Source: a virus. Taken from it: a stretch of DNA of 55,219 nt. The stretch lies in IMG/VR virus record IMGVR_UViG_3300022725_000123, positions 1 to 55,219 of that record. The stretch is one strand, 5' to 3'. Positions 1,559-55,064 of this stretch are shown piece after piece. A program made the position numbers and the translations under genes. Every line of letters starts with the position of its first letter. Position 1 is the first letter of the stretch. Below the pieces are notes generated by a model. The model did not search any database and had not been told where the DNA came from. It was given only the letters and a program-made list of their open reading frames with translations.

Positions 1559-4500
1559 CACATTTTTTTTCGCTATTCGTTTTTGCATCATCAGGTAAAG
1601 AAGTAAGTCTACTTCCTTTCTTATTTCGCTTTTTATTTTTTATACTTCTTAACCTACTTTGTTTAGACTCGTTTATATTATCTTTACTCATTGTTTCACT
1701 TTTTGAATCAGGTACCACATTTTCTGTAGGTTCCTTGATAGATAACGAATCTTTAGACTCTTTAGTTTCTTCTACCGTTTTATTAATTTTTGATAAAACT
1801 TTTTTACCTATTCCAGATGTAGGTGAGATTTCATTTCCTTGACTTGCACTATTTTCTGTATTATTTATAATTCTATCATCTTCTGTAACAGCATAAGTAA
1901 AAGTTACATCTTTTTTATTTGTTATTGAAACGTTTTCATATGAAATAAAATTACTTTTAATATGTGCTCTGTTAATAAGTTTGGAATCAGTTATCTTTCT
2001 ATTAGTATTACTATTTATTACCGTACCATCTGGCTCAACTATAACAGACCAATTTGAATTCTTATCTTTTTTTAATAAAATTACGTTACTATCTGGTGAA
2101 GTTTCTTGAACGTTAGTAGTTTGCTGCGCTGACTGTGAATCAGTTGCTTCATCTGTCAACTTATTATCTCCTGATTCCTCTTCTAAATTAAGTGACTCTT
2201 CGACAATTTCTTCAGCACCAGTGTATAACCTATAGAAATCAAAAAATAAAGTACCATTACTTTCATTATCTCCTTTTACTTGATCTGGTGTTTTAAATAT
2301 TTTAGGTTTGTCTGAATAAATATATTTATTTGAAATAAGATATTCAACGTAATCAGAATTATGTAATAAGTCTACGGATACATTGTGACGTTTGTTATTT
2401 TTTAGAAACGAAATGATACTTTGTTTACTTGATTCAACGTTTTCCGCAGTAGCTACTAGTGGTGGAAGCTTTTTATTTTCAGAAGGGTTTTCAGAAATTT
2501 CTTCTGGTATTGTAGTACTATAATGTAGAGCTTCTCCTTTTTTTGCAAAATATAATCTTGTTTTAGGATAGTTATGTGTATTTACATTGTTATATACAAA
2601 AAATTCTAAAACTTTAGAATATGTTAAATCACCAAATAATTCTGAATTTACAGGTGATTTACTTTTTAATTCTTCTGAAATTTCATCATTAAATTCTTTA
2701 CCTTCTATTAGTTTTTCTCTTATTACTTCATAAATAAACTCTGCTTGTTCATCATTAAGTTTAGATCTACCTACTGTAAAAGGTACTTCTTTTCCTGTGT
2801 TATCGATAATAGGTATATATATTTCACCCGGTCTACCTCTTTTTGACTTTGTTTTAGTACCAATAAAAAAAGATTTCTTATCTTTATCTCTATATTGACC
2901 TTTTTTATCAGTATATACTATTTCAAACTCTTGACCTACTACATCAGTTAATAAAAATTCACCTGTTTTTTCAGCAAATGGTAATGCTGACTGACCTGTA
3001 ATAGAACCTTTAACTTTAACGTTTGGACCAAATGATTTTATTTTATCTCTAAATTCAGCATAAGTTTTCGATAAAGGTGTTTTTTCAGTTCCTTTTTCGT
3101 ATAAAAAAGTATATACTATTTCTCCATTGTGTTTAACATAAGAACCATCCTCATTTAAAAACCGTACTACAATAGAATCGTATTCATCAGAAGGCTCATA
3201 AGTAAACTCAGGAGTTAAATTTGTTTTATCAAAAGGTTGTTCTAACCACTCTGAAAAAGTAGGATTCATTTCTTTCTTAACAGCTGCAAATACAAGAGAC
3301 TTTTTACCTGTTACATCCTCTCTTTCAACTTGACTAAAATCAGATTCTTCATTTGGTTGATCGTCATTGTTACTTGTTTCAGGATTACTAGATTCTTCAA
3401 CTTTTTTTAGATTTTCTGCTAAATTATCTATTTCAACTTTATTATCAATATATAGTTGCTTTTCTTCAGCAGGTAAAGAACTACTATTTTTATTAGGATC
3501 ATTTAGTGTTTCAGCAATAGATTTAAACTTTTCTTCTTTTATCTTTTTTATTTCTGCTAGTTTATCAGAAATATTTAATTTCATCCCTCTTTCTTCGGCT
3601 TCTTTTTTTACCTCGTAGACATCTTCTTCTTTTGCAGCGTTACTTAACTTAGTTTTAATTTCATTTCTAACAGCTTCCTGCTTTCCTTCACTGGATGTTA
3701 AAAAGTTATTTCGTTTTACTTGTTTATTAAGTAATGATTTATAAGAATCATATTTTGCCAAAGCTGAAATATACTTACTTAAAATATTTTCCTCTCCTTC
3801 TTGCATAAGAGCTTCTTCGATACCTTTATCCATCTCTTTTTCGGTATCTGTTCTTTCATCTTTAAGCTCTGATAATTCATTTTTATAGATTTCTCTAAGT
3901 TTATCTATTTTATTTTTAATCTTTTTTAATGGTACTTCCTTATCTTCAATAGTATCATCCATTAAAACAGACATCATTTCATTATTACTTTGAACGTCTA
4001 ATGCTTTTATTTTTGAATGAATATCTATTTTTTCTTGTGCGTGTGAAGAAAGTTCATTAAAATTAGGAATAGAAGATTTAATATTGTTAATTTCTTGTTG
4101 CTGTAAATCTTTATTTTTAGAATACTCATCAACAAGTAATTCACCATACGCAATTTCAGCTGCTGATGCTCCATATTTATTAGCTAGTTTTAAATATCTT
4201 TCTCGTAATTTTAAAGCATCTTTTTTTAGTTCTGGAAAACTTTCTTTTACTTTATCGGTATCTATTTTAACTTGATGTTTTTCTTCAAGTTCTAGTATCT
4301 CTTCAGGTGTTAAATTTTCAAATCCTTCTAACATTTCTAAATGATTATCAAATCTATCATTATTGATAGCTGAAATAGTCATATAGAGATTAGCAATTTT
4401 TTTATTTATCTCAGGAGATTCTTCGTTACTTATATTTGAAAATAAATCATTTAATAATTTATCACGTTGTTCAAAGTAACGTTTGTTTTGTTTTCTAGCA

Positions 4501-5717
4501 GTTCTTCGATTTACAATATCACCAATACCTTGAAATAAAGCACCACCTAAACCACCCATAACAACAGAATTCCAAAATTCAGAATTCCCAAGCATGTCTC
4601 CATACTTTTCACCTACTGATTCATAATCAACTAATCCATTTTCATAACGAATTCCGTGTTTTGCTGTTTCACCAACATTAAATTGATATGCTTCTTCAAC
4701 TGCTTCTGACGTACTTACTACACCATATTTTTTAAGTGCTTTTCTATATTTATTTTTTCCAGAGAATAATGCTTTCTTAGGAGCTTTGGAAACCATTTTA
4801 CCCGTAAGAGGATTAAATATTTTACCTATTGCTAAATACTGAGGAATATCTTGAAGCAGCATTACCCAGTTTTCATAATATACTTTTTCTGCTGCTTCTC
4901 TAGCAGCTTTTTTTGAAAGACCTTCTTGTAGGAGTTCTTCGTAAATACCAGAAGCTTCCATTGTAGACTCAATCTGTCTTGATAAAACAGCTTGTGAAAC
5001 TCCATTTGCAAGCCATTTTGATTTTTTTGATAATTTTCCTGCTTTAACTAATTTACTTAAAACTCTAGAACCTTTTGATAAATTACCTGCTAACTTTCCA
5101 ACTGCGGAAATAGCTCTTACTGTACCAGCTGCTGGAATAAGCATTGAAAGAGTACTACCTATTGAAATCATAGTTTCAAAAAAATCTTCAGAATCACCAA
5201 ACATAGAACCTCCTTCTTGTGTTTGGTAAATGGGTAAAGTACTATCTCCAAAATCAGTAATAGCTTTACCTATTTCTATTAGAGCGTTTTCAGATTCCAA
5301 TGCAATATTGTTTCCTTTAGCCATTTCAAACAAAGTACCAAAACCACTAATTCCCTTACCTACTACAGTAGTTGCTAATCGACCAGCCGCGTTTGCCCAT
5401 TCATGATGAAAAGGTTGATTTTTACCTCGAATTCTTTCTTGTTTTAAAGGATCATCTAATACACTATAAGGTGTGTTGGTATCATATTGAGATTCACCTG
5501 TTCCACGAATAAAATCTAAACTTACGTTTTCTTGTTCATTTGGAACTTCAATATCTATAGGTTCATCACTTATTTCAATTGAAAACGGTTCTTCTTTAGA
5601 GGTTTCTTCTGGTTCTATATTAGGTGTTTCTACTCCTTCGTCAGATTCAATATCATCAATTTCAATATCTACTTCTTTTTCTGAACCTTGTAATGAATCT
5701 AATTCTTCAATTGTCAT
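1548..5717 (-). CDS. Large internal virion (cargo) protein, 1389 aa
   Basis: Very acidic, Glu/Lys/Ser-rich protein. The first 70 residues are a low-complexity acidic segment with repeated EVDIEIDD-like patterns. A more hydrophobic, Gly- and Ala-containing stretch follows at about 110-240 (VVGKGISGFGTLFEMAKG; SMLIPAAGTVRAISAVGKLAG) and could touch membrane. Long charged coiled-coil-like helices fill about 410-800. The last 80 residues are basic (SKQSRLRSIKNKKRNKKG). It sits one base after the upstream gene and overlaps the next by 11. By position it matches the large packaged proteins of crAss-like phages thought to be ejected with the DNA. The membrane segment suggests a role at the host envelope, which is inference. 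Confidence 0.65.
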   Translation of the reverse strand: MTIEELDSLQGSEKEVDIEIDDIESDEGVETPNIEPEETSKEEPFSIEISDEPIDIEVPNEQENVSLDFIRGTGESQYDTNTPYSVLDDPLKQERIRGKNQPFHHEWANAAGRLATTVVGKGISGFGTLFEMAKGNNIALESENALIEIGKAITDFGDSTLPIYQTQEGGSMFGDSEDFFETMISIGSTLSMLIPAAGTVRAISAVGKLAGNLSKGSRVLSKLVKAGKLSKKSKWLANGVSQAVLSRQIESTMEASGIYEELLQEGLSKKAAREAAEKVYYENWVMLLQDIPQYLAIGKIFNPLTGKMVSKAPKKALFSGKNKYRKALKKYGVVSTSEAVEEAYQFNVGETAKHGIRYENGLVDYESVGEKYGDMLGNSEFWNSVVMGGLGGALFQGIGDIVNRRTARKQNKRYFEQRDKLLNDLFSNISNEESPEINKKIANLYMTISAINNDRFDNHLEMLEGFENLTPEEILELEEKHQVKIDTDKVKESFPELKKDALKLRERYLKLANKYGASAAEIAYGELLVDEYSKNKDLQQQEINNIKSSIPNFNELSSHAQEKIDIHSKIKALDVQSNNEMMSVLMDDTIEDKEVPLKKIKNKIDKLREIYKNELSELKDERTDTEKEMDKGIEEALMQEGEENILSKYISALAKYDSYKSLLNKQVKRNNFLTSSEGKQEAVRNEIKTKLSNAAKEEDVYEVKKEAEERGMKLNISDKLAEIKKIKEEKFKSIAETLNDPNKNSSSLPAEEKQLYIDNKVEIDNLAENLKKVEESSNPETSNNDDQPNEESDFSQVEREDVTGKKSLVFAAVKKEMNPTFSEWLEQPFDKTNLTPEFTYEPSDEYDSIVVRFLNEDGSYVKHNGEIVYTFLYEKGTEKTPLSKTYAEFRDKIKSFGPNVKVKGSITGQSALPFAEKTGEFLLTDVVGQEFEIVYTDKKGQYRDKDKKSFFIGTKTKSKRGRPGEIYIPIIDNTGKEVPFTVGRSKLNDEQAEFIYEVIREKLIEGKEFNDEISEELKSKSPVNSELFGDLTYSKVLEFFVYNNVNTHNYPKTRLYFAKKGEALHYSTTIPEEISENPSENKKLPPLVATAENVESSKQSIISFLKNNKRHNVSVDLLHNSDYVEYLISNKYIYSDKPKIFKTPDQVKGDNESNGTLFFDFYRLYTGAEEIVEESLNLEEESGDNKLTDEATDSQSAQQTTNVQETSPDSNVILLKKDKNSNWSVIVEPDGTVINSNTNRKITDSKLINRAHIKSNFISYENVSITNKKDVTFTYAVTEDDRIINNTENSASQGNEISPTSGIGKKVLSKINKTVEETKESKDSLSIKEPTENVVPDSKSETMSKDNINESKQSRLRSIKNKKRNKKGSRLTSLPDDAKTNSEKKCDGI

Positions 5718-43595: not shown

Positions 43596-43620
43596 GAGAG
43601 CCCTTCGGGGCTTTCTTTTT
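43596..43620 (+). terminator. Intrinsic terminator after the 77-aa gene
   Basis: GAGAGCCC (43596-43603) pairs with GGGCTTTC (43608-43615) around a TTCG tetraloop, with one G-T pair, followed by TTTTT (43616-43620). It lies 3 bases after the stop codon. Confidence 0.9.
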
Positions 43621-43947: not shown

Positions 43948-44042
43948 ATGTTAAGCTTATGTTAAGTTTATGTTAACTGTATGTTAAGTAAATGGTGCAT
44001 AAATGACTCTAATGTTAACTCAATGTTAAGAGAATGTTAGCT
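43948..44042 (+). repeat. Iteron-like array of 11-bp ATGTTAA units
   Basis: Nine consecutive units that start with ATG: ATGTTAAGCTT, ATGTTAAGTTT, ATGTTAACTGT, ATGTTAAGTAA, two diverged ones (ATGGTGCATAA, ATGACTCTA), ATGTTAACTCA, ATGTTAAGAGA, and a partial ATGTTAGC. The period is 11 bp apart from one 9-bp unit, so the sites lie on one face of the helix. The setting next to the divergent region and before the replication genes suits a replication origin or a cooperative repressor site. Confidence 0.65.
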
Positions 44043-44518: not shown

Positions 44519-44764
44519 AACTTGTACAGGTTATATAACTACATAAGTAAAAGAACTTAAAAGAGTGTTAGTGTAGTTAATAACACAAACTTGTTTAATA
44601 CCTTGAGAAAGTATTAAATGTATCTGGAAGTTATCCTACTTAGGGATTTTAAGGATTTCTTACTTGTATGTAACTATCTCTTTTATGGGCGAGGTTATCG
44701 TAAGTGCGACATGTGTACGCATAACGTTAATTGTGGTTCAAGTCCACAGTAGTTACTACAAGTT
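44519..44764 (+). ncRNA. Structured RNA R1, tRNA/tmRNA-like outline
   Basis: Outer helix AACTTGTA (44519-44526) / TACAAGTT (44757-44764). Inside, TAACTAC (44536-44542) / GTAGTTA (44749-44755) makes a 7-bp acceptor-like stem. Two bases later comes AAGT-AAAAGA-ACTT (D-arm-like), then AAAAGAG (44559-44565) / CTCTTTT (44678-44684) closing a large insert with hairpins GTGTTA/TAACAC and TTTAATAC/GTATTAAA. Next a GTTAT/ATAAC arm, then a perfect T-arm TGTGG-TTCAAGT-CCACA (44732-44748). The order matches a tRNA with a large insert in the anticodon arm, or a reduced tmRNA. An alternative acceptor partner, GTAACTA (44670-44676), pairs with TAGTTAC (44750-44756). Confidence 0.55.
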
Positions 44765-44821
44765 TTAATACTAACAAGGAGTGTTGCATCCCTTTATTTA
44801 TTTAAATAAAAGTTGAAACCT

Positions 44822-44891
44822 CTTGTAATAATCTCACTTGATATAGAATACCGACATTGATGGTGAGAAAAGGTATTTGTATTATTACAAG
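44822..44891 (+). ncRNA. Structured RNA R2 with H-type pseudoknot
   Basis: An 11-bp perfect closing helix CTTGTAATAAT (44822-44832) / ATTATTACAAG (44881-44891). Inside, CTCAC (44833-44837) pairs with GTGAG (44863-44867) and AATACC (44847-44852) pairs with GGTATT (44872-44877). The two inner helices cross, so this is a pseudoknot. It has no coding content on either strand. Confidence 0.6.
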
Positions 44892-44893
44892 TT

Positions 44894-44975
44894 TCATAAG
44901 AGAAAATCTTATGAGTAGAATGTAGTTAGGAAGTGTATGTGGAGGAACAGTCTCTCAGCTTCAAACCTACATTCT
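44894..44975 (+). ncRNA. Structured RNA R3 (hairpin plus 9-bp stem)
   Basis: Hairpin TCATAAG (44894-44900) / CTTATGA (44908-44914), then AGAATGTAG (44917-44925) / CTACATTCT (44967-44975) closing a 41-base interior with possible GAAG/CTTC pairs. Confidence 0.45.
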
Positions 44976-45010
44976 TTAAAAGATTATTGTTTAACATTAA
45001 TAAACAGTTT

Positions 45011-45088
45011 CTTGTAACGTTGGAGTAAAATACCAGAGAGTGTATTACCTCTTGGTTTGGTTGAAAATCCATCATACAACCTTACAAG
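45011..45088 (+). ncRNA. Structured RNA R4 (CTTGTAA-closed)
   Basis: CTTGTAA (45011-45017) / TTACAAG (45082-45088), continued after a C-C mismatch by GTTG / CAAC. Interior ACCA-G-AGAG / CTCTTGGT (8 bp, one bulge) overlaps an alternative AATAC / GTATT pairing, giving a possible switch or pseudoknot. The 16 bases up to the closing helix (AACAGTTTCTTGTAA) recur before R5. Confidence 0.5.
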
Positions 45089-45103
45089 TTAACAAAACAG
45101 TTT

Positions 45104-45214
45104 CTTGTAATATATATGGAATCACAGAGAGTTGTAAGGTTAGCAATTAAATCCTTATGAACCAGATTGTGATGGTTGCCTTTGCGTGGAAATATATGTA
45201 GCTACTATTACAAG
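45104..45214 (+). ncRNA. Structured RNA R5 (CTTGTAA-closed, pseudoknot-capable)
   Basis: CTTGTAATA (45104-45112) / TATTACAAG (45206-45214). Interior hairpin TAAGG (45135-45139) / CCTTA (45153-45157); TCAC (45122-45125) / GTGA (45169-45172) crosses AACCA (45160-45164) / TGGTT (45173-45177), the same crossing order as in R2. Confidence 0.5.
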
Positions 45215-45217
45215 TTG

Positions 45218-45249
45218 TAGTATGAAAACATACTATGTAAAACTGTTTT
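45218..45249 (+). terminator. Hairpin and T-run after the R1-R5 group
   Basis: TAGTATG (45218-45224) / CATACTA (45229-45235) with an AAAA loop; a run of T follows at 45245-45253 after a 9-base spacer. The distance is longer than usual, so this is a weak terminator or a further RNA stem. Confidence 0.35.
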
Positions 45250-45274
45250 TTTTTATTACTTAAAACTAAGTAAA

Positions 45275-45430
45275 ATGAAACAAATTTATGTTCTGGTTCA
45301 ATGGCCAGAATCGCAAAATTACATGGAAGAAAATTGGTTTTATGAAGAAGCTATTCTTTATCAAGCTAATAAATATCAAGAACACTTAGACAGTGCGTAT
45401 TTTATACCACTAAAAAGAAGAATAATTTAA
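45275..45430 (+). CDS. Small early protein, 51 aa
   Basis: MKQIYVLVQWPESQNYMEEN, then WFYEEAILYQANKYQEHLDS and a basic end (PLKRRII). A-rich leader (CTAAGTAAA) before the ATG at 45275. A strand followed by a helix; no family recognised. Ten bases before the next gene. Confidence 0.6.
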   Translation: MKQIYVLVQWPESQNYMEENWFYEEAILYQANKYQEHLDSAYFIPLKRRII

Positions 45431-45440
45431 ATAACTAATT

Positions 45441-45722
45441 ATGAAAAAAATATTAACACTCCTATTGTGCTTAACAGTATCAATAGGTTTTAGTCAAGTA
45501 AAAAACACCTATCAATTAGAGATAGTAAGTTTGGAGTATGACATTCCAAACACAACAATTGATTTTCAAGTAATTGAAGTTGTTGATATCTATGGTAACG
45601 GAGAATACGTTGAAATAGAATCATTTGACAACTTTCAAATAATGGATATCTATAATGAAGATGGTATTATAGAAGAAACTTATTATTTAGATCTTGTTGA
45701 CGTTTGGGATATTAATTATTAA
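45441..45722 (+). CDS. Exported acidic protein with signal peptide, 93 aa
   Basis: Sec signal peptide MKKILTLLLCLTVSIGFSQ, then an acidic, beta-strand-rich mature part with repeated D-x-x-x-x-Y-x-x-x patterns (IVSLEYDIPNTTIDFQVIEV). Early expression of a periplasmic or secreted protein suggests a role at the host envelope, for example against superinfection. That is inference. Confidence 0.65.
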   Translation: MKKILTLLLCLTVSIGFSQVKNTYQLEIVSLEYDIPNTTIDFQVIEVVDIYGNGEYVEIESFDNFQIMDIYNEDGIIEETYYLDLVDVWDINY

Positions 45723-45748
45723 AGTAGAACGTTAAACCTTGAAACGTT

Positions 45749-45786
45749 GTGGTTATGCTACGCCTATGTTAGCCTTATATAATCAC
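45749..45786 (+). ncRNA. Structured RNA R6 (hairpin)
   Basis: GTGGTTAT (45749-45756) / ATAATCAC (45779-45786), continued inward by GCTA (45757-45760) / TAGC (45770-45773) with a 5-base bulge on the 3' side. The stem has 12 pairs, one of them G-T. Confidence 0.5.
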
Positions 45787-45808
45787 TAAAGAAAGATAGA
45801 ATATAAAT

Positions 45809-45925
45809 TGTAGTAATATTTGTTGTCAGTGCAAGCCTGAATGTGGTAGCAGACAGAGATGTTGTTTTCAAACAGTAAATTTATGACCAGATATAGACGT
45901 GAAAGTGTATTGGATATTTACTACA
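45809..45925 (+). ncRNA. Structured RNA R7 (TGTAGTAA-closed)
   Basis: TGTAGTAA (45809-45816) / TTACTACA (45918-45925) close about 100 bases with inner TGTC / GACA pairs. No ORF of note lies inside. Confidence 0.4.
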
Positions 45926-45938
45926 TATTAAATTTATC

Positions 45939-46065
45939 AAGTGTACCAACTGTATTGTAATATGTTGAAGGAAGGAAGTGTTATTATACGATTTAATGTG
46001 CTGATATTCGTATAAATATAGCAATAAAAATATGTAGCACAGCATATATCAATTTACTTACACTT
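45939..46065 (+). ncRNA. Structured RNA R8 with pseudoknot
   Basis: AAGTGTA (45939-45945) / TACACTT (46059-46065) closes the element. Inside, TTATACGA (45984-45991) pairs with TCGTATAA (46008-46015), and TGTGCT (45997-46002) in its loop pairs with AGCACA (46036-46041) beyond it: a crossing pair of 8 and 6 bp. Confidence 0.55.
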
Positions 46066-46078
46066 AGGAGTTTACAAC

Positions 46079-46156
46079 AAGAGATAATGTGAAGACTTGG
46101 AGGATTTTGGCCCTCGATTTTAGAGCTTACATATGTATATGCCAATATATTATCTC
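46079..46156 (+). ncRNA. Structured RNA R9 (GAGATAAT-closed)
   Basis: GAGATAAT (46081-46088) / ATTATCTC (46149-46156). The closing sequence AAGAGATAAT recurs in R11 (46465-46474), and the bases after both are also similar (ACCATTTATAATAGTGAA against ACTATTTACAATAGTGAA), so the two are paralogues. Confidence 0.5.
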
Positions 46157-46159
46157 GTG

Positions 46160-46233
46160 ACCATTTATAATAGTGAATAACATTTGGTAGTTGTTTAATG
46201 AGTTGTTACCAACTAACAGCTATTATAAATGGT
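46160..46233 (+). ncRNA. Structured RNA R10 with 14-bp perfect stem
   Basis: ACCATTTATAATAG (46160-46173) / CTATTATAAATGGT (46220-46233), 14 perfect pairs. Inside, TTGGTA or TAGTTG can pair with overlapping TACCAA or CAACTA, giving alternative folds. It ends 29 bases before the ATG at 46263, so it could regulate that gene. Confidence 0.55.
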
Positions 46234-46262
46234 TTTTTAATAACAAAATAAAAAGAAATGTT

Positions 46263-46457
46263 ATGGAAAGTTTGGTAAATTTAGCAATGCATCATATGTC
46301 TGAACAGAAAGCTATAAATAAAGCTCTTAAACAAAAAGCTTTATCTGAATATGAAGCTGCTTTAAAGATGCCTCGGAAGAAAAAGAAAAAAGCTAAAAAT
46401 TCTGCTATGATATTGTATAGTATAGCTTGTTGGGGAGAAGATTTATTAGAATATTAA
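46263..46457 (+). CDS. Small basic protein between RNA elements, 64 aa
   Basis: I choose ATG at 46263 (MESLVNLAMHHMSEQKAINK); an upstream in-frame TTG at 46191 would run into R10. A basic patch MPRKKKKKAKNSAM follows a helix, then SIACWGEDLLEY. Basic and helical, so RNA or DNA binding is possible. It lies between R10 and R11. Confidence 0.5.
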   Translation: MESLVNLAMHHMSEQKAINKALKQKALSEYEAALKMPRKKKKKAKNSAMILYSIACWGEDLLEY

Positions 46458-46462
46458 TTACG

Positions 46463-46543
46463 TCAAGAGATAATAAACATCGACTATTAATAGTAGTAAC
46501 GTGAGAGTATATGTTGCAAGCTTAAATCTGTATTATCTCTTGA
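46463..46543 (+). ncRNA. Structured RNA R11 with 12-bp perfect stem
   Basis: TCAAGAGATAAT (46463-46474) / ATTATCTCTTGA (46532-46543), 12 perfect pairs. The following 80 bases contain ACTATT / AATAGT pairing and correspond to R10, but with a weaker stem. Paralogue of R9. It is followed by a small ORF, as is R9-R10. Confidence 0.55.
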
Positions 46544-46653
46544 CTATTTACAATAGTGAAAACTCTTCGGTACTTCAGTAAGTTGATAATGTTGAGATCA
46601 ATAGTATAAATGAAGCTGTTGTGATGATGCTAATAACAAAACAAAAGAAAGTT

Positions 46654-46821
46654 ATGAAAAAGTCAGAGAAATTTAAACTTATATTATTTATCATACTAGT
46701 ATTAACAAGTTTGTTTATATTAATTAGACCTTGTAGTATTAAGCCTTTCTCTAACCATGATTGTTATTGTGAAGGATTTAAAAAAACTGCTGGTAAATAT
46801 CCAATAAGTTGTACACATTAA
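46654..46821 (+). CDS. Small membrane protein, 55 aa
   Basis: Start at ATG 46654 (MKKSEKFKLILFIILVLTSL), preceded by the leader AACAAAACAAAAGAAAGTT, like that of 46263. One membrane helix then CSIKPFSNHDCYCEGFKKTA with four Cys. Could be anchored with a Cys-rich outer part. Function unknown. Confidence 0.5.
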   Translation: MKKSEKFKLILFIILVLTSLFILIRPCSIKPFSNHDCYCEGFKKTAGKYPISCTH

Positions 46822-46849
46822 TTATTAATCGTAGAAAACAAAAGATACT

Positions 46850-47341
46850 ATGAAAAATCAAACAAGGAGACAAGCTTTAGAATGGTGGAGTAAATTACCT
46901 AAAGATACAAGACAACAAAGCAAATTAAATCTTTGTTGGATATATTTTGATATAGGTAGAAATCCTAGCTCCTTAACAGGTAGAGAAATTGAAAAGATTT
47001 GGAGAAAAGAACATCCTAATTTAATTAAAGATGCGGATGAGTTGTCTAATTTAATGGATGATACTTTTGAATCCAAACCTAATCAAAAACAATTTAAAGA
47101 ATTTAATCCTGAATTGTTTAAAGCTTATATTAATAAGTTTAGTGATAAAGATAAAGTAAAAGCTTTAAATATTCTTTTGTTACAAGACAATATAGGACTT
47201 CAAATAAATGCAGAAGTAAAAGATGGAGGTAAATATTCAGAAATGAGTATAGTAGAGATAATTCCTATGATTATTAAATATATAGATAATACTCTTATAG
47301 GTAAAACTATGGATAAAATTTATTGCTATTACAAAAAATAA
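46850..47341 (+). CDS. Early hypothetical protein, 163 aa
   Basis: MKNQTRRQALEWWSKLPKDTRQQSK, then IYFDIGRNPSSLTGREIEKI and, towards the end, SIVEIIPMIIKYIDNT. Helical, mixed charge. A conserved-looking W-W-x-x-L start; no family recognised. It ends 5 bases before R13. Confidence 0.5.
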   Translation: MKNQTRRQALEWWSKLPKDTRQQSKLNLCWIYFDIGRNPSSLTGREIEKIWRKEHPNLIKDADELSNLMDDTFESKPNQKQFKEFNPELFKAYINKFSDKDKVKALNILLLQDNIGLQINAEVKDGGKYSEMSIVEIIPMIIKYIDNTLIGKTMDKIYCYYKK

Positions 47342-47345
47342 CATT

Positions 47346-47559
47346 TAACTACCAACTAATTTATTTTATAAAATGAAAAGGGGCTACTAGACAGAATGAG
47401 TTAACCAACGTACAAATGTGTATGAGGTGCAATAGGTCTTGATTACCTGAATCTAAATATGATATTACTACAGTAATCAAAGATAAATAAGGGACTGTTG
47501 AAAATCCTAGAAACTAGACAGTTTGATATTTAGATAGTTTTATAAAAAGTTGGTAGTTA
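47346..47559 (+). ncRNA. Structured RNA R13 with long closing helix and 8+10-bp pseudoknot
   Basis: TAACTACCAACT (47346-47357) / AGTTGGTAGTTA (47548-47559), 12 perfect pairs, continued by TTTTATAAAA (47364-47373) / TTTTATAAAA (47538-47547). Inside, TTGATTAC (47439-47446) / GTAATCAA (47473-47480) and ATCTAAATAT (47451-47460) / ATATTTAGAT (47526-47535) cross. No ORF of note. The 10-bp crossing helix is unlikely by chance. No group I intron core sequences were recognised. Confidence 0.65.
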
Positions 47560-47727
47560 TTTCTTTTCAACAAAGAAAAGAAAGTAGCAAAGAAAAGAAA
47601 TTTTATTCCTGTATACAATTGTTACTTTGTAACATTGCTTTACAAGATTAAAATCTTGAAAAGAATTTCAGCAAAGGTACAACATTTAAATATAAATGTC
47701 AAGTGCTTTTTGTAGAAAAAGGATGAA

Positions 47728-47857: not shown

Positions 47858-47931
47858 GGTCTTATAGCTCAATTGGATAGAGCCATTGTCTTCTAAGCAA
47901 TAGGTTTCAGGTTCGAGTCCTGATAAGATCA
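47858..47931 (+). tRNA. tRNA-Arg (anticodon TCT)
   Basis: Acceptor GGTCTTA / TAAGATC (7 bp with one G-T), D-arm GCTC-AATTGGATA-GAGC, anticodon arm ATTGT-CTTCTAA-GCAAT (TCT after T33), variable AGGTT, T-arm TCAGG-TTCGAGT-CCTGA, discriminator A, no encoded CCA. Reads AGA, the main Arg codon in AT-rich genes. Confidence 0.95.
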
Positions 47932-48309: not shown

Positions 48310-48348
48310 AGTGTTGTCGGCAATAACTGTCGGCAACACTTTATTTTT
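48310..48348 (+). terminator. Possible terminator after the SSB-like gene
   Basis: AGTGTTG (48310-48316) / CAACACT (48334-48340), 7 bp with a loop containing TGTCGGCAA twice, followed by TTATTTTT. Moderately strong; it would separate the abundant SSB-like protein from downstream replication genes. Confidence 0.6.
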
Positions 48349-54206: not shown

Positions 54207-55064
54207 ATGAAAATAGTAATATTAAGAAGACGTGGGTTAGGAAACACGTCTACTATAGGAATTAAAAGTAATTCCAATAACAATATTGAAATTACTAGAA
54301 ACGATAAAGAAATTCCTCAAGATACTGATTTATTGATTAGATGGGGGTGTACTTCACAATTTCCTTCAAAAAAAACTTTAAATAAAGCAGAGGGAATTAA
54401 AGCAATTAATAATAAATATCTATCTCGTAAAATATTACAAGAAGCAGGTGTTAGTGTTCCTAAATTATATGAAGATATTGAAGCTGTTGATACGTTTCCA
54501 GTAATAGTAAGACCTGAATATCATGCTCAAGGTAAAATATTGTATTACTGTAATAACCAAGGTGAATTGTTTGACGCTGAATATCACATAAGCAACTTAG
54601 GTAAAGACGTTTATATATCTGAATATATTAAAAAAGACAGAGAGTTTGGTGTATTTATATTTAATAATCGTATTTGGAGTGTAATTGAAAAAGTTCCTAA
54701 AATTGAAGGAGCAAATAATGAAATTGCTTGGAATGTAGCTCAAGGTACACATCGATTTCAAAATGTAAAATGGAGTGAATGGCCAATTGAAATATGTAAA
54801 GAAGCTTTAGATGCAGTTAAGTGTTTTAATATAGACTTTTGTAGAGTAGATATTATTGTAAAAGATAATAAACCTTACATATTAGAATTAAATTCAGCAC
54901 ATAGTCTTACTAGTAATTATAGACAAGAAGCATTTGCAAAATGCCTTGATTATTTTATTGAAAATGGTAGTGTTAAAAATGAATTAGAATTAGATAATCT
55001 CACTTCTTATAAAGGTTTAATACATCCTGCCTTACGAATAAATAAAAAACTTATAAATTTATAA
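54207..55064 (+). CDS. ATP-grasp ligase (RimK-like), 285 aa
   Basis: ATP-grasp pattern: PVIVRPEYHAQGKILYY (about 97-113), the glycine-containing lid and Lys; VYISEYIKKDREFGVFI with the Glu pair; FCRVDIIVKDNKPYILELNS (about 214-233), the D...E-x-N metal site. Such enzymes join a carboxylate to an amine or thiol using ATP. In phages they can modify peptides or small molecules, for example with a peptide substrate encoded nearby; none is clear here. It ends one base before the next gene's ATG. Confidence 0.75.
   Translation: MKIVILRRRGLGNTSTIGIKSNSNNNIEITRNDKEIPQDTDLLIRWGCTSQFPSKKTLNKAEGIKAINNKYLSRKILQEAGVSVPKLYEDIEAVDTFPVIVRPEYHAQGKILYYCNNQGELFDAEYHISNLGKDVYISEYIKKDREFGVFIFNNRIWSVIEKVPKIEGANNEIAWNVAQGTHRFQNVKWSEWPIEICKEALDAVKCFNIDFCRVDIIVKDNKPYILELNSAHSLTSNYRQEAFAKCLDYFIENGSVKNELELDNLTSYKGLIHPALRINKKLINL

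Follow-up and report, generated by a model that had tools for sequence, protein, structure and literature searches.

The closest described counterparts of the locus examined here are GOLLD, a large noncoding RNA of phages and prophages, and ROOL, a large phage-encoded RNA, both of unknown function and both often found near transfer RNA (tRNA) islands; each forms RNA cages, and GOLLD, which combines a conserved core with a variable region sometimes containing tRNAs, has been reported as ribosome-binding (PMC12286853). We analysed an array of structured RNAs (candidate elements R0 to R13, 44519-47559) in the window, a stretch of 55,219 bases from the IMG/VR virus record IMGVR_UViG_3300022725_000123, an incomplete phage genome that was assigned to the crAss-like phages through its portal, terminase, major head protein, crAss auxiliary capsid protein and DNA polymerase. 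The array almost certainly contains two conserved structured RNAs, a large RNA with five arms (R6-R10) and a tRNA-like RNA (R1).

In common with GOLLD, the large RNA is phage-encoded and lies near a tRNA gene (tRNA-Arg at 47858), and a transfer-messenger RNA (tmRNA) stands beside the copy in contig L207, a setting that does not extend to every carrier. Unlike GOLLD, it is shorter, has another skeleton, occurs as full and partial copies beside other RNAs, and was found only in Crassvirales-like and unclassified phage contigs. ROOL is alike in being a large phage RNA near tRNA genes, but there was no sign of ROOL sequence. The original prediction had offered a large phage RNA of the GOLLD or ROOL kind, which comes close for R6-R10 (multi-helix, near tRNA or tmRNA, and in one relative bearing a tRNA-like arm) but fails as to family: the Rfam covariance models of GOLLD and ROOL matched neither the window (to E ≤ 10) nor loci L224 and L185 (E ≤ 1). 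A cmscan of the window against Rfam 15, at the gathering threshold and at E ≤ 10, returned tRNAs only, so that the Rfam search that had been proposed placed neither conserved RNA in any family. The large RNA works at most like GOLLD or ROOL, and by Rfam it is a member of neither.

R6-R12 had been counted among at least ten separate elements, which is wrong for this part of the array, as R6-R10 are arms of one RNA with the order H0-P1-P2-P3-linker AGGAGUUUACAGCA-P4-GUG-P5 (lengths in nucleotides, nt):

45728-46233, + strand: large RNA, about 506 nt, H0-P1-P2-P3-linker-P4-P5; colinear in 15 other viral contigs, with a divergent copy, L185
45728-45786, + strand: R6, the H0 hairpin (45728-45733/45743-45748) and P1 (GTGGTTAT/ATAATCAC)
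45795-45938, + strand: R7, the P2 arm, with base GATAG/TTATC, a conserved internal loop and distal helix TGTAGTAA/TTACTACA
45939-46065, + strand: R8, the P3 arm, AAGTGTA/TACACTT, with nested hairpin CCAAC-TGTATTGTAATAT-GTTGA; covariation, and invariant columns in alignment A8
46066-46079, + strand: conserved linker AGGAGTTTACAACA, from P3 to P4
46081-46156, + strand: R9, the P4 arm, GAGATAAT/ATTATCTC; covariation
46160-46233, + strand: R10, the P5 arm, ACCATTTATAATAG/CTATTATAAATGGT; z -4.7; covariation
46462-46640, + strand: R11-R12, a partial second P4-P5 copy; 30-nt repeat at 90% identity, pairing counted

The sequence AAGAGATAAT, predicted to be common to R9 and R11, was found in both. Across the aligned copies, the 5' part of the skeleton comprises the H0 hairpin, P1, P2 (GATAG...CTATC) and P3 (AAGTGTA...TACACTT, with a nested hairpin and conserved loop), and the 3' part comprises the linker AGGAGTTTACAGCA, P4 (GAGATAA...TTATCTC), GTG, P5 (ACCATTTATAGTAG...CTATTATAGATGGT) and GCTAA. 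The centroid of an unconstrained fold of the window copy contains the skeleton arms. The P3 hairpin loop TTGTAA may also pair with TTACAA/G of the linker, a proposed contact that lacks covariation support.

Because folding energy alone was not decisive, homologues were sought. When the open reading frame (ORF)-free stretches of R1-bearing phages were compared, positions 45723-46262 of the window proved colinear with arrays in three other phages, in blocks of up to 98% identity. A scan of all viral contigs with the block GTGTACCANCTGTATNGTAATATG matched 15 contigs, which include near-duplicates (L065/L170/L171; L225/L227, the same stretch) and so amount to 12 distinct versions besides the window; the corresponding scan of 84,980 prokaryote genomes gave none, with no exact match of the P3 motif. 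A Blast search of 50,697 sequenced phages with the region gave a single match, inside an ORF, and no believable copy. Weak motif-query matches in Lak and another huge phage turned out to be coding sequence and chance.

The skeleton is near-identical in these 15 other IMG/VR contigs and recognisable in a sixteenth (L185, in the crAss-like L038), while overall length falls from about 506 nt in the window to about 200 nt in L221 and individual arms range from tetraloop hairpins to more than 100 nt. For instance, L219 and L220 have a GCAA tetraloop hairpin as P2, L220 has no P4, and L221 has minimal forms of P4 and P5; in L185, P2 is a tRNA-like domain (GTGTATA...GCTGG-TTCAAGT-CCAGC...TATACAC). 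The arm bases, the linker and a 13-nt hairpin loop do not vary, whereas the arms differ freely in length and sequence, which makes the core the functional portion and the arms interchangeable.

Paired strands of the skeleton change together: GATAG/CTATC is replaced by GGTAG/CTACC, GATGT/ACATC or GATTA/TAATC, CCAAC/GTTGG by CCACC/GGTGG, and ACC/GGT by ACT/AGT. Using alignments (A5-A7) whose arm-base strands were hand-trimmed, and a shuffle control that makes no correction for relatedness, we found 95.5% pairing with five two-sided pairs for P2 and P3 (A5; 0/500 shuffles), and 96.2% pairing with four two-sided pairs for P4 and P5 (A6; reached by 2/500 shuffles, and by 0/500 for the covariation score). 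P1 strands pair better with their own partner than with those of other sequences (mean 7.9 vs 5.5), as do the P2 distal helices, and the H0 stem changes in sequence with pairing kept. P2, P3, P4 and P5 are thus supported by compensatory changes, and H0 and P1 more weakly so. Loss of helices in homologues without compensation had been named as the observation that would count against structure; instead, the helices survive with compensation.

The second conserved RNA is the following:

44663-44762, + strand: R1, tRNA-like RNA; homologues L020, L057, L065, L167, L169 and L205; covariation

R1 has the tRNA layout of a 7-bp acceptor (GTAACTAT/GTAGTTAC, lengthened outward by CTTGTA/TACAAG across a bulged U), a strictly conserved D-arm with a G-rich loop (CTC-TTTTATGGGC-GAG) and a T-arm of 5 bp with a 7-nt loop (TGTGG-TTCAAGT-CCACA). 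The spacer at tRNA positions 8-9 is absent, the acceptor helix is extended in most copies, and a variable hairpin takes the place of a normal anticodon arm. Searches of R1 as a tRNA with RF00005 and ARAGORN gave no match even at E ≤ 10. Phage L020, whose terminase is 65% identical, has the same D- and T-arms and an outer helix that is entirely different yet matching; pattern searches recovered further members in other phages, a custom R1 model scored nine records at 83-101 bits, and L205 is one more version. Among seven distinct versions, 97.1% of cells are paired and 10 pairs have changed on both sides, which 0/500 shuffles in the same kind of control reach, and no exact D-arm match occurs in the prokaryote genomes. 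We regard R1 as a separate conserved tRNA-like RNA that is unable to decode. Two looser searches were set aside: loosening the R1 pattern brought in mostly false matches to tRNA or coding sequence, and a T-arm plus long-acceptor descriptor was noisy (19 matches vs 10 in shuffled sequence).

Other described RNAs show partial likeness. tmRNA (RF00023) occupies the same slot in relatives, and the tRNA-like arm of L185 recalls it, but that arm is internal and not formed by two RNA ends; within the window, ARAGORN and Rfam gave no RF00023 match and no tag reading frame was recognised. The bacterial Y RNA YrlA (RF02553), like R1, carries a tRNA-like module on a long terminal helix; it had no Rfam match in the window, and no TROVE/Ro60 gene was found in 20 records searched, mostly fragments. 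Phage T4 has two small stable RNAs, C and D, of unknown function within its tRNA cluster; their likeness to the array is by description only. Both conserved RNAs are families without a match in Rfam 15, and they look like undescribed parts of host takeover.

The array as a whole was predicted to hold more perfect long-range helices than expected by chance, with little coding capacity between elements, and both statements are borne out. Counting perfect Watson-Crick helices with loops of 30-200 nt in 44519-47560, against 200 dinucleotide-preserving shuffles, we found that 15 reached 9 bp or more (shuffled mean 5.2, maximum 12) and nine reached 10 bp or more (mean 1.6, maximum 5). When helix counts were pooled over the intergenic DNA of relatives, crAss-like phages could not be told from control phages. 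Element by element, R1, R3, R10, R11 and R13 fold better than shuffles. Folding energy alone is weak evidence, and uninformative for the large RNA as a whole; covariation among homologues is convincing. The remaining elements are:

44519-44590, + strand: R0a, candidate element with a 13-bp closing helix with one bulge (GTTATaTAACTACA/TGTAGTTAATAAC)
44822-44891, + strand: R2, candidate pseudoknotted element closed by CTTGTAATAAT/ATTATTACAAG (44822-44832/44881-44891)
44917-44975, + strand: R3, candidate element closed by AGAATGTAG/CTACATTCT; z -3.65
45011-45088, + strand: R4, candidate element closed by CTTGTAA/TTACAAG (45011-45017/45082-45088)
45104-45214, + strand: R5, candidate element closed by CTTGTAATA/TATTACAAG (45104-45112/45206-45214)
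47346-47559, + strand: R13, candidate structured RNA with three nested 10-12 bp helices; z -2.9

For R0, R2-R5 and R13 the evidence is one of helix statistics, namely more helices than chance. The closing helix CTTGTAA/TTACAAG recurs in R2, R4 and R5, with a near form in R1, where the original prediction had placed it; mobile DNA bounded by terminal inverted repeats is disfavoured as an account of these inverted ends, the interiors of R2, R4 and R5 being unrelated.

The array lies on the + strand in the early region, between leftward structural genes and rightward replication genes, and is bounded by terminator-like hairpins at 43.60 and 48.31 kb:

43596-43615, + strand: intrinsic-terminator-like hairpin just 5' of the array; the same hairpin sequence occurs in relative L020
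47858-47932, + strand: tRNA-Arg(TCT), 3' of the array
48310-48340, + strand: intrinsic-terminator-like hairpin 3' of the array

On this strand, no terminator-like site was found within the region from 43.6 to 48.3 kb. We conclude that the region is probably a cluster of noncoding RNA genes co-transcribed with small ORFs in the early region of a crAss-like phage. Among the carriers, the major head protein is 44-49% identical to that of the window in L207, L038 and L221 and 25-27% identical in L065, L169 and L218; several carriers of the large RNA are fragments of unknown type. In L207/L213 a tmRNA is found near these RNAs, close to the large RNA in L207 itself, and L065/L217 has one in the same region. 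In other crAss-like phages, tmRNAs occupy the corresponding slot 5' of the DNA polymerase, where relatives also carry tRNAs with enlarged anticodon or variable regions.

On balance, it seems probable that the array is a cluster of noncoding RNA genes whose products are trans-acting structural RNAs. The large RNA and R1 would be stable transcripts acting in trans, a reading suggested by their conserved structures, their phage-only distribution in the collections searched, the nearby tRNA or tmRNA in several carriers and the unrelated flanking genes. By analogy with GOLLD and ROOL, they may act on host translation or the tRNA-handling machinery, a tentative proposal that we put at somewhat below an even chance; the target might be the host ribosome, tRNA-binding proteins or nucleases. 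Several observations weigh against this reading. Nothing direct points to the target, and ARAGORN found no tRNA or tmRNA in most fetched stretches with the large RNA. R0a/b, R2-R5 and R13 yielded no homologue (R2 only a weak match, E 0.52); R5, R6, R7, R8 and R12 are singly unremarkable in folding energy, and the large RNA taken whole (527 nt) is not unusually stable against shuffles (z 0.36). Lastly, in L218 an insertion of about 225 nt splits P3 from P4-P5, and there are partial copies (R11-R12; L207 7125-7336, with a separate P1-P2 copy in L207), suggesting that the P1-P3 and P4-P5 halves may work apart.

We regard it as unlikely that the RNAs are anti-defence decoys which mimic tRNA or defence triggers and titrate nucleases that cut tRNA or defence proteins that sense RNA. 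Such a role would fit the patchy occurrence in unrelated phages, the variability of the arms and the duplications, as well as the strictly conserved, tRNA-like D- and T-arms of R1 with the anticodon arm discarded, and there is a precedent in which amplification of a phage tRNA gene beats a tRNA-cutting defence (Septu/T6, PMC13096335); the counter-measure in that case, however, is an intact functional tRNA. Moreover, a decoy arms race is expected to vary recognition surfaces, whereas the core here is conserved, and no defence or counter-defence gene was found among the proteins neighbouring the array. These proteins also included no toxin family, and the RNA region held no tandem short-pseudoknot repeats of the type III toxin-antitoxin kind. 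RNA packaged in the virion, which the original prediction had offered alongside decoys, likewise gained no positive evidence.

A cis-acting role, as leader, intergenic or processing structures through which early mRNA is controlled or stabilised, also seems rather improbable. The RNAs do lie between same-strand ORFs with no internal terminator-like site, and R10 and R12 each stand directly 5' of a small ORF (46262 and 46654). Yet the genes flanking the large RNA, small and mostly same-strand, differ both upstream and downstream in every phage, and this speaks against regulation of any single gene; conservation of several arms and linkers extends over 200-500 nt without a shared gene, and L218 accommodates its insertion inside the RNA.

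It is very unlikely that the array is a degenerate island of functionless tRNA and tmRNA relics, although a tRNA-Arg adjoins it and relatives have aberrant tRNAs and tmRNAs in that slot. Relics do not retain compensated helices and invariant motifs of 20-25 nt in divergent phages, so that this origin is contradicted for R1 and the large RNA; it could still apply to R2-R5 and R13. Inverted repeats arising by chance in AT-rich intergenic DNA, which the ordinary folding energy of several arms would allow, have a negligible probability given the helix excess and are refuted for R1 and R6-R10 by covariation that 0/500 shuffles reach.

Returning to trans-acting structural RNAs, a broader and more doubtful extension is that Crassvirales and some other phages share cassette-like large modular RNAs whose exchangeable arms are in part tRNA-like, forming an RNA machine that acts on the ribosome or the tRNA pool of the host, with the invariant core (13-nt loop and AGGAGUUUACAGCA linker) as its contact surface. 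The crAss-like phages are among the most abundant human gut viruses, and a study of their genomes discussed tRNAs and introns and not other noncoding RNAs (PMC7886860). The two covariation-supported families, one large and one tRNA-like, provide defined targets for further study and bring a new example to the problem of why large structured RNAs occur in phages.

Other features were noted in the window and its relatives. Units resembling ATGTTAAG repeat with a period of 11 at 43948-44030, 5' of the array, and 54207-55064 encodes an ATP-grasp protein that resembles the phage ribosomal protein S6 glutaminyl transferase (PHROG 2599) and might modify ribosomes. tmRNA genes of crAss-like and related phages lie at L005 7889-8277, L012 8128-8516, L065 1480-1852 (- strand), L008 5012-5389 (below the Rfam cutoff), L013 2830-3210 and L207 8101-8550, some with unusually long tags, such as one of 33 residues ending in ELLAA. 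tRNAs at L012 8815-8960 and L205 (reverse complement, about 4620-4790) have their anticodon or variable region enlarged by some 75-100 nt of structured sequence. tRNA-like RNAs without an anticodon arm occur 5' of the DNA polymerase at L010 4399-4468, L011 1909-1974 and L013 7559-7628, with perfect 11-bp extended acceptors, each of different sequence. In some R1 carriers two more RNAs stand in a set order, often before R1, first a pseudoknot RNA and then a three-way-junction RNA with core CATCYGYAARATAGATGRCAC (L057 480-595, L065 1025-1110 on the - strand, L167 9000-9120, L205 reverse complement 3900-4050, L206 60-185, L207 4520-4650), in which paired strands change together between phages. 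Another common element, closed by AAACTCTCA/TGAGAGTTT and containing CATCCAATTGC and CAAGGTGCAACCTTG, lies at L206 247-375, L169 1935-2045 and L020 230-300 (- strand). Finally, L016 8900-10000 holds short ORFs in a row just before the DNA polymerase, each after a shared start motif ending in AGAATAATATG.

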